The notes beneath the pieces are model-generated. The model made no database searches. It saw only the letters and a list, made by a program, of their open reading frames with translations, and was not told where the DNA came from. Below are positions 23,100 through 26,540 of a DNA stretch of 48,386 nucleotides, piece after piece. Position 1 is the first letter of the stretch. Each line of letters starts with the position of its first letter. The stretch is from Planctomyces sp. (GTDB lineage: Bacteria; Planctomycetota; Planctomycetia; Planctomycetales; Planctomycetaceae). A program made the position numbers and the translations under genes. The stretch covers positions 1 through 48,386 of the forward strand of contig SXXK01000063.1 of the NCBI GenBank assembly GCA_005791255.1. The letters are read 5' to 3'.

Positions 23100-24536
23100 A
23101 TGGCAACTAACTTCTGCGGACGTACCCGCCGTGAGATGCTCTGGCAGACCGGGGGCGGTTTCGGTGCTGCCGCGCTGACCGGACTGTTGTCAGACGATGG
23201 CTTTTTTTCCGCCGCAGCACAGGCTGCCGATGGCGCCGCTTTGCCGCAGCCCCACTTTACTCCCAAAGCAAAAAGCGTCATCTTTCTCTTCATGTACGGC
23301 GGCCCCAGCCACATCGACACCTTCGACTACAAGCCCGACATGAAGGGCCGTGACAATCAGACCATTCAGGTCAAAACGTTCGGACGAGGCGGACGCCGCA
23401 ACTCCGGGCGCATCGTGGAACCACGCTGGGATTTCCACCAGCTCGGACAGTGCGGCAAATGGATCAGCACGCTGTTTCCGCATCTGGCCACCTGCGTTGA
23501 CGACATCGCCTTTATTAACTCCATGACCGCCGATTCCCCCATCCACGGCTCAGCCATGCTGATGATGAATTCCGGGCGCGTCCAAAGCGGCCATCCGTGT
23601 CTCGGATCGTGGGTGAACTACGGACTGGGCAGTGTGAATCGCAATCTGCCGGGATTCGTAGTGATGCTGGATCCCACCGGCGGACCAATCTCGGGCGCGA
23701 AAAACTGGTCCAGCGGATATATGCCGGCCAGCCTGCAGGGAACAACCTTTCGCACGCAGGGAGCACCGGTGCTGGATCTGCAGGCCCGTGATGGCGTCAG
23801 CCGCGAACTGCAGCGGGACCTGCTGGACGCTCTGAAACAGCAGAACGAAGCTCACGCCGCACTGCACGGCGGACGCTCAGACCTGACATCCCGCATCGCC
23901 AGTTACGAACTGGCCTTCCAGATGCAGCAGTCGGCACCGGAAGCCGTCGATATCGCCACAGAAACCGCCGAAACACAGCAGCTGTACGGGCTCGACAACG
24001 ACCGCACTCGCGACTTCGGCACCAAGTGCCTGCTCGCCAGACGGCTCGTCGAACGTGGCGTACGCTTTATCCAGGTGTACTCCGGTGGTGCTCACAATGA
24101 CGACAACTGGGATGCACACTCGGACCTCAAAAAGAACCATGACTACCACGCCTTCAACACCGATCAGCCAATCGCTGCCCTGCTGAAGGACCTGAAACAG
24201 CGCAACCTGCTGGACGAGACTCTCGTGGTCTGGGGCGGAGAATTCGGACGACAGCCCACGGCTGAATACGCCGAAGGCACAGGTCGCGATCACAACTCAT
24301 ACGGCTTCACCATGTGGATGGCCGGCGGTGGCATTCGCGGCGGAGTCAGCGTTGGAACAACCGACGAACTCGGCTCAGCCGCCGTCGATGATCCCTTCCA
24401 TGTCAAACGACTGCACGCCACCGTTCTGCACCAGTTGGGCATCGACCCCAACCGGCTCAGCTACTTCCACTCAGGACTTGACCAGAAACTTGTCGGAGTC
24501 GAACACGTGGAGCCAATTCGGCAGATCATTGGCTGA
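23100..24536 (+). CDS. DUF1501 domain-containing protein with Tat-like leader
   Basis: RRREMLWQTGGGFGAAALTGLL leader; [76 protein letters not shown]. Confidence 0.94.
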   Translation: MATNFCGRTRREMLWQTGGGFGAAALTGLLSDDGFFSAAAQAADGAALPQPHFTPKAKSVIFLFMYGGPSHIDTFDYKPDMKGRDNQTIQVKTFGRGGRRNSGRIVEPRWDFHQLGQCGKWISTLFPHLATCVDDIAFINSMTADSPIHGSAMLMMNSGRVQSGHPCLGSWVNYGLGSVNRNLPGFVVMLDPTGGPISGAKNWSSGYMPASLQGTTFRTQGAPVLDLQARDGVSRELQRDLLDALKQQNEAHAALHGGRSDLTSRIASYELAFQMQQSAPEAVDIATETAETQQLYGLDNDRTRDFGTKCLLARRLVERGVRFIQVYSGGAHNDDNWDAHSDLKKNHDYHAFNTDQPIAALLKDLKQRNLLDETLVVWGGEFGRQPTAEYAEGTGRDHNSYGFTMWMAGGGIRGGVSVGTTDELGSAAVDDPFHVKRLHATVLHQLGIDPNRLSYFHSGLDQKLVGVEHVEPIRQIIG

Positions 24537-24607
24537 GCAGACCTCAGGTCACTTCGCTCAGTCCTGCCCGATTTCATCGATATCCAAAACCCGGCCACTG
24601 GTGCTGA

Positions 24608-24879
24608 ATCACGTCAGTTGATGGTTCAGCCAAGCACCCTCAGGGTTCAACAAACCTGCCCTTCAATGTCTTGTCAGACGGTGAGAAGTGTTTTTTATCG
24701 CTGCTCTGGTAATTGCTGTGAGTGCCGTCAGTAAAACGGTTTTTTGTTTCTGGGACAAACCTGATAATTACCTCGCACTGTCTGAGGTCAGCCACTTTAT
24801 CATCGCACTGCGAAAATACCTCCAGCACTTCAGCGGGCAGCTGATCAATGCCCTGCTGACAGATGATATTACACCATGA
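24608..24879 (+). pseudogene. C-terminal remnant of an AAA/ABC-type ATPase (signature + Walker B), frameshifted
   Basis: Frame 24662: PFNVLSDGEKCF, then 1-nt shift in a T6 run into frame 24688: FIAALVIAVSAVSKTVFCFWDKPDNYLALSEVSHFIIALRKYLQ...LINALLTDDITP; LSDGEK resembles the ABC signature, CFWDKPDNYL a Walker B/D-loop. Confidence 0.6.
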
Positions 24880-25259
24880 GCGGCAATAAATACCGTCCTC
24901 ACATCTGTGTGCTTCCTGAGCATGATGCTAATCGGCAGATCGCCAACGGATTTCTGACCAACTTCAACGTTGCGATAAAATCCATCAACATACTGCCGAT
25001 AGCCAATGGCTGGGGAAGGGTGCTGGAGGAATTCCTTCAGAATCATGCAAAACCAGTGCGACGCAATACCGTATCGTATTTTATCCTTTTGTTCGATTTT
25101 GATGCCAAACTGGAACAACTGGGTGCAACACTGGCGTCGGAATGCTTTGAAAATCGTCGCGAACTCTGGAACCATGAGCTGCTGAGACACAATCTTCGTG
25201 AACTGGATCGAATGCCGGACGAATTACGAAAAATCATCTTCAACTCGTCGGGTCCGTAA
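24876..25259 (+). CDS. Small partner protein of an ATPase module ('CVLPExDANRQIANGF' family), probably internally deleted
   Basis: MSGNKYRPHICVLPEHDANRQIANGFL...ILPIANGWGRVLEEF...FILLFDFDAKLEQLG..ELWNHELLRHNLRELDRMPDELRKIIF; ATGA overlap with the preceding ORF. Confidence 0.55.
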   Translation: MSGNKYRPHICVLPEHDANRQIANGFLTNFNVAIKSINILPIANGWGRVLEEFLQNHAKPVRRNTVSYFILLFDFDAKLEQLGATLASECFENRRELWNHELLRHNLRELDRMPDELRKIIFNSSGP

Positions 25260-25274
25260 GTCGACTCTGCTGCC

Positions 25275-26540
25275 TCAGCCGCGTACCTGCCCGGTCCCGC
25301 GAATCACATATTTGTAAGTCGTCAGCTCGCGCAGACCGCAGGGACCCCGCGCGTGAAACCGATCTGTGCTGATCCCGATCTCGGCACCCAGACCCAGCTC
25401 GCCACCATCATTAAACCGAGTACTGGCGTTAATCACTACGGCTGACGAATCCACCGCCGACTCAAAATGGCCGGCCGCTTCCAGACAGCGAGTCACTATG
25501 GCATCCGTATGACCCGATCCGTAAGTCCGAATGTGCTCAATCGCCTCTGCCAGACTGTCCACAATCCGCACATTCAGGATCAGGGCTCCGTGTTCAGTCC
25601 GATAATCCTGCTCCGTCGCCACCACGGCTCCCGCAATCCCCGCTCGTGATCGTTCGCAGCACCGCAGCTCCACACCACGCTGCTGCAGTGCAGCTGCCAG
25701 CGCCGGCCACAGCTCTGCGGCATTCACATGCAGCAGCAGGGTCTCAGCCGCATTGCACACCGCCGGACGCTGACATTTGCTGTTGATCACAATGTCCAGT
25801 GCCATCTGCAGCTCGGCACTCTGATCCACAAACACATGGCACACACCATCAAAGTGTTTCAGCACCGGCATCGCAGCTTCCCGAACCACCCGCTCGATCA
25901 GCGATCGACCGCCGCGAGGTATGGCCAGGCTGATCAGATCACTCATCTGCAGAAACTCGCCCACCAGTTGTCTGTCCGTCGATCCTACGACCTGCACGGC
26001 ATGCTCGGGCAGTCCGGCGGCGGCCAGAGTTTCAGTAATCAGCCGTCCCAGTTCCAGATTTGTGCGAATCGCCTCCGAACCTCCTCGCAGGATCACCGGA
26101 TTGCCACTCTTCACGCACAGCGCTGCTGCATCAACTGTGACGTTCGGACGTGATTCGTAAATGAAAAACACCACCCCCAGCGGCACTCGCACTCGGCTCA
26201 CCTGCAGTCCGTTGGGACGACGTTCTCCACTGATGACTTCACCCACCGGATCCGGCAGGGCACAGATCTGCTGCACCGCAGTGGCCAGCGACTGAATGCG
26301 CGGCTCATCCAACCGCAGTCGATCCAGCATCGCCTCGCTCATGCCGGACTGACGTGCGGCAGCGAGGTCCTGCAGGTTCGCCGACACCACCGCATCCACC
26401 GCTGCCCGCAATGCCTCTGCCAGCATCTGCAGCCAGCGATTCTTGTCCGCTGTGGCGAGTGTCGCGAGTGCCGTGACGGTGCTGCGCGCCTGCAGGGCCA
26501 GCGTGCGAGGCGGGGTCTGAGCAACGGCGGTGTGAGTCAT
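25275..26540 (-). CDS. proA: Glutamate-5-semialdehyde dehydrogenase (gamma-glutamyl phosphate reductase)
   Basis: RVRVPLGVVFFIYESRPNVTVDAAALCVKSGNPVILRGGSEAIRTN; GHTDAIVT; NASTRFNDGGELGLGAEIGISTDRFHARGPCGLRELTTYKYVIRGTGQVRG. Confidence 0.96.
   Translation of the reverse strand: MTHTAVAQTPPRTLALQARSTVTALATLATADKNRWLQMLAEALRAAVDAVVSANLQDLAAARQSGMSEAMLDRLRLDEPRIQSLATAVQQICALPDPVGEVISGERRPNGLQVSRVRVPLGVVFFIYESRPNVTVDAAALCVKSGNPVILRGGSEAIRTNLELGRLITETLAAAGLPEHAVQVVGSTDRQLVGEFLQMSDLISLAIPRGGRSLIERVVREAAMPVLKHFDGVCHVFVDQSAELQMALDIVINSKCQRPAVCNAAETLLLHVNAAELWPALAAALQQRGVELRCCERSRAGIAGAVVATEQDYRTEHGALILNVRIVDSLAEAIEHIRTYGSGHTDAIVTRCLEAAGHFESAVDSSAVVINASTRFNDGGELGLGAEIGISTDRFHARGPCGLRELTTYKYVIRGTGQVRG

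Follow-up and report, generated by a model that had tools for sequence, protein, structure and literature searches.

A decayed ATPase gene with a putative TOPRIM-like partner beside proA in a planctomycete, and the family of intact pairs to which it leads

What lies between the DUF1501-type gene and the convergent proA gene of this planctomycete? In the window, i.e. the whole stretch of 48,386 nucleotides that was analysed, both flanking genes are intact and the region between them extends from 24537 to 25274. Most of it (24552-25259, starting 15 bp past the DUF1501 stop) has a GC content of 0.486, versus 0.594 in the window as a whole and 0.649 in the corresponding spacer of the sister genome G507. 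A first-pass annotation, made from the sequence, had described a decayed two-gene ATPase module, left by a mobile or defence cassette. Homology, disruptions and intact relatives agree with the first part of this description, and the locus is almost certainly a decayed copy of an ATPase-partner pair. Pfam was nearly silent on this copy, with only a weak SMC_N match for the joined ATPase frames and none for the partner; the case was therefore built from relatives. The following features were delimited (window coordinates).

23100..24536, + strand: DUF1501-type gene, intact, left flank (open reading frame, stop at 24534-24536; blastn against sister genome G507, L125)
24552..24629, + strand: ATPase piece 1, in the frame of 24552, LRSVLPDFIDIQNPATGAESRQLMVQ, aligning from about residue 231 of intact ATPases (tblastn)
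24630..24640, + strand: first frameshift, a frame change separating collinear tblastn pieces
24641..24694, + strand: ATPase piece 2, with the signature motif LSDGEKCF (tblastn, 63-78% identity)
24690..24695, + strand: second frameshift, T6 tract (sequence and frames; position within a base or two)
24691..24879, + strand: ATPase piece 3, Walker B region WDKPDN to the C-terminus and stop (tblastn, alignment to 75 intact ATPases)
24876..24879, + strand: ATGA overlap of ATPase stop and partner start (sequence; as in most intact pairs)
24876..25259, + strand: partner remnant, 127 aa (open reading frame, family profile, alignment)
25275..26540, - strand: proA, intact, right flank (open reading frame; blastn 88% against sister genome G507)

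Intact ATPases matched the window in three collinear pieces lying in three frames, with a best combined E-value of 3e-22 (tblastn), and at the sequence level this resemblance is not due to chance. Piece 1 shared 62% identity with residues 231-259 of an intact ATPase (L084; tblastn). Homology was found to begin at about 24552, in a third frame, and not at 24608 as had been proposed. The peptides quoted in the first-pass annotation were all present in the frames assigned to them, and the 1-nt shift it had placed at the T6 tract was confirmed: PFNVLSDGEKCF (24659-24694) runs on as FFIAALVIAVSAVSKTVFCFWDKPDNYLALSEVSHF... (24691-24876) in another frame. A further frameshift, between 24629 and 24641, had been missed.

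The 127-aa partner ORF matched the family profile (1e-25 plus 1e-11) and, by tblastn, a protein encoded on a Kovacikia minuta plasmid (E 4e-24), as well as one other planctomycete, G178. In both of these genomes, the partner (about 164 aa) is immediately preceded by an ATPase that is complete, at 384 and 370 aa, respectively. With the degenerate 127-aa protein as a single-sequence query, the genome contigs yielded no match; relatives were found once an alignment including the intact copies served as the query of the genome collection. This alignment-based search revealed partner relatives at no fewer than 128 loci, belonging to Cyanobacteriota, Acidobacteriota, Thermodesulfobacteriota, Pseudomonadota, Planctomycetota, and other phyla. 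Eighty of these loci were fetched. The ATPase ORF ended at the partner start in 79 of them, as well as in Kovacikia, and the junction was mostly a 4-nt overlap, ATGA or GTGA; in the lone exception, the match sits 72 bases from the contig end. The intact layout thus consists of an ABC-type ATPase of about 370 aa, an ATGA overlap, and a partner of about 160-164 aa, the two proteins being probably translated together via the overlap. The overlap at 24876-24879, and an ATPase adjoining a partner of about 170 aa, had both been anticipated in the first-pass annotation. Homology to a single ATPase family and intact neighbouring pairs, the lack of either of which it had regarded as fatal to its reading, were both found.

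Clustering of the neighbouring genes revealed no conserved third gene beside the pair; the largest cluster corresponded to response-regulator-like proteins (12 loci), at varying distances from it. The partner was not found in the viral contigs and phage records searched, which leaves a phage-borne cassette unsupported. Some other copies look broken too: the ATPase ORF was cut short upstream in L011, the partners of L038, L065, and L067 were truncated, and a stop was observed inside the partner of L088. Our general literature searches, largely limited to freely accessible papers, found none on this ATPase-partner pair.

Intact ATPases matched Pfam AAA_21/AAA_15 above the cut-off, as well as SMC_N, and conserved the motifs GxNGxGK, LSDGE, WDEPDN, and TSHN, which correspond to Walker A, the signature, Walker B with its catalytic Glu, and the His switch, respectively. 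The closest folds to the predicted structure (pLDDT 91) were Rad50/SMC heads and PtuA-type retron/Septu ATPases. Judging from these motifs and matches, the protein is a free-standing ABC-type ATPase, OLD/RecF/Rad50-like. Among the PADLOC models, AbiLi, HEC-01A, mad3, and AriA matched it moderately; such matches identify a superfamily rather than a particular system, since a genuine HEC-01A gives them too.

For the intact partner, Pfam and NCBIfam yielded no convincing match and a PDB sequence search nothing meaningful. Its AlphaFold model (pLDDT 94), a prediction that the first-pass annotation had suggested, exhibited alternating strands and helices, with Glu15 at the end of strand 1 and D74-x-D76 at the end of strand 3, which is the TOPRIM arrangement. 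E15, D16, and D74 were found in all 75 intact partners and D76 in 74 of them. TOPRIM proteins (retron Eco2, topoisomerase I, and DnaG primase) recurred among the fold matches, which were weak, none being below E 0.001. Based on the modelled topology and the motif, the intact partner is quite probably TOPRIM-like. The PADLOC model HEC-01B was matched weakly (best E 4e-4; 6 of the 75 members at E up to 1). In terms of sequence profiles, the partner family is therefore undescribed in Pfam and NCBIfam and only weakly matched in PADLOC.

In the sister genome G507, DUF1501 and proA are likewise adjacent, with protein identities of 91% (proA) and 96% (DUF1501) over the part compared. At the nucleotide level (L125), 87% identity was observed up to window position 24537, 1 bp past the DUF1501 stop, and similarity resumed exactly at 25275, the proA stop. 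The G507 spacer is 390 bp long and unrelated to the remnant, so that the insertion between DUF1501 and proA that had been put forward cannot be traced base for base, and no precise footprint of it could be drawn. As the spacer is wholly different in the closest relative (L125, contig end, G507), this intergenic site appears to turn over quickly.

The partner was not found in the ten same-genus genomes listed; across the family, 6 of 119 good genomes carried it. In 77 of the 80 loci, its GC content was lower than that of the locus, with a mean difference of 5.7 points (partner genes of L003, L005-L084). One copy is carried by the Kovacikia megaplasmid. An ATPase was also observed on a conjugative Dolichospermum plasmid (L085:8001-9110), where no partner could be recognised downstream of it. 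In the ATPase tree, sequences group by phylum, with 14 phylum changes versus a minimum of 8, which allows some transfer without proving it. The mobile origin suggested by the first-pass annotation is supported only indirectly, by the low GC, the patchy occurrence, the plasmid copies, and the absence from the same-genus genomes searched; these, taken together with the sister spacer and the tree, favour lateral gain followed by decay at the window locus. We infer that a single species of this planctomycete genus acquired the operon laterally.

By analogy with PARIS, AbiL, and HEC-01, the most likely role of the intact pair is that of an ATPase sensor and a TOPRIM nuclease effector in defence. 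Following the PARIS analogy, the intact ATPase would assemble, sense an invader, and hold or deliver the TOPRIM protein, whose Glu and Asp-x-Asp would bind Mg2+ and cut nucleic acid; this cleavage would arrest the infection. Complex formation, trigger, substrate, and defence are all putative, being transferred from the known systems. As a whole, the window locus is likely to be what decay has left of a two-gene operon gained by lateral transfer, whose intact form is a PARIS-like pair of ATPase sensor and TOPRIM nuclease. A defence role for the intact pair, exerted through nucleic-acid cleavage, seems, again by analogy, slightly more probable than not. We would suggest only tentatively, with somewhat less than even confidence, that the intact pairs represent a widespread immune system so far undescribed, split between an ATPase and a TOPRIM protein, with a partner family outside current libraries and the window copy as its fossil.

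The gene context of the intact pairs lends defence no clear support and does not settle the matter. Their neighbours are mostly housekeeping genes, and in a raw count of the 113 nearest genes, defence genes occurred as single cases only (HEC-01, a PvuII-type enzyme, and PD-Lambda-2_A). Intact pairs in defence islands, which the first-pass annotation had considered, thus came down to a few with defence neighbours in a mostly housekeeping context. In one locus, a complete HEC-01 pair (L030:3155-4836, - strand; HEC-01A 1e-113, HEC-01B 2e-73) was observed downstream of the intact ATPase-TOPRIM-like pair, in convergent orientation.

RecF, an ABC ATPase, and RecR, a TOPRIM protein, form a known pair of comparable kind. 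The main rival explanation follows this precedent: intact pairs would be a RecF/RecR-like module for DNA repair or genome maintenance, consisting of an ATPase and a TOPRIM adaptor, and the window copy a lost accessory repair operon. The ATPase model counts Rad50/SMC heads, alongside PtuA, among its closest folds, and the predominance of housekeeping genes around the intact pairs also suits repair. However, core repair would be a poorer fit than a dispensable accessory system for genes that occur patchily, are low in GC, lie in part on plasmids, and often decay, and we consider this explanation rather unlikely.

Whichever role the intact pair plays, the window copy has lost much of what its relatives conserve. 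In the ATPase, about 230 N-terminal residues, including Walker A, are absent, and piece 3, the C-terminal part, has lost about 44 residues in frame near 24846, TSHN among them; both losses had been recognised in the first-pass annotation. It had also read an ABC signature followed by Walker B; the signature and the Walker B region are indeed present, but the catalytic Glu, found in 75/75 intact relatives, is replaced by Lys (alignment). The signature is thus the only ABC-type ATPase motif left intact. The partner remnant retains the TOPRIM-like Glu15 and D74-x-D76, and Asp16, present in 75/75 relatives, is replaced by His. About 37 residues (family positions 80-116; about 40 had been estimated) are deleted around 25107-25115, which takes out predicted strand 4 and the invariant Gly101. 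The window copy cannot work, lacking Walker A, the catalytic Walker B Glu, and the His switch, with a deletion in the TOPRIM core. Its decay is probably not very old, because 16 of the 19 most conserved ATPase columns still covered, and 22 of the 23 in the partner, are kept. Decay seems to be common among copies of this family.

The shortened partner could still be a working gene, its 127-aa ORF being open and almost all of its most conserved covered columns kept; however, the missing strand and Gly101, the His in place of an invariant Asp, and a dead operon mate make this very improbable. Even less credible is an artefact of sequencing or assembly, the genome being a draft of 542 contigs and 88% completeness; such errors could explain one frameshift in a short homopolymer but not, jointly, two frameshifts, two in-frame deletions, and the loss of about 230 N-terminal residues and of the Walker B Glu, in a locus whose flanks are both collinear with the sister genome.

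The decayed ATPase-partner pair is ordinary as a fossil; the family to which it leads is a new variation on the ATPase-plus-TOPRIM kind, with a partner undescribed in the libraries consulted. Starting from a dead fragment, the analysis arrived at 128 or more loci that form a coherent family and that, almost without exception, join an ATPase of known kind to a small TOPRIM-like protein. In PARIS, the TOPRIM nuclease AriB is kept sequestered by the ATPase AriA until AriA senses a phage protein, whereupon AriB is set free (PMC12409363). The present pairs resemble PARIS in having separate genes for the ATPase and a small TOPRIM-type partner, and the intact ATPase is OLD-like and matches the AriA profile; however, this match is at superfamily level only, and no AriB model was among the PADLOC matches of the 75 partners, which sets the partner apart from PARIS. 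The PADLOC candidate HEC-01 (HEC-01A/B) has the same layout, its genes for an ATPase (about 370 aa) and a partner (about 190 aa) overlapping as well, and the ATPases are clearly related (hhalign 96%). The partners differ: besides the weak HEC-01B profile matches, the partner profile fails to align with the HEC-01B of L030 (hhalign probability 0.5%), which sets the partner outside HEC-01. AbiLi gave the best or second-best PADLOC score of the ATPase (3e-24, 4e-21), but this match is generic, because a genuine HEC-01A scores AbiLi equally well; despite the AbiLi-type ATPase, no AbiL partner model, i.e. no AbiLii-type partner, was among the matches of the 75 partners, which argues against AbiL. 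OLD nucleases (class 1 and class 2/Gabija GajA) likewise couple an ABC ATPase to a TOPRIM module, but as one polypeptide rather than two genes, and no helicase gene recurs beside the intact pairs. If immune, the intact pairs would add one more ATPase-TOPRIM design to PARIS, AbiL, and HEC-01; if not, they would be a candidate accessory repair module.
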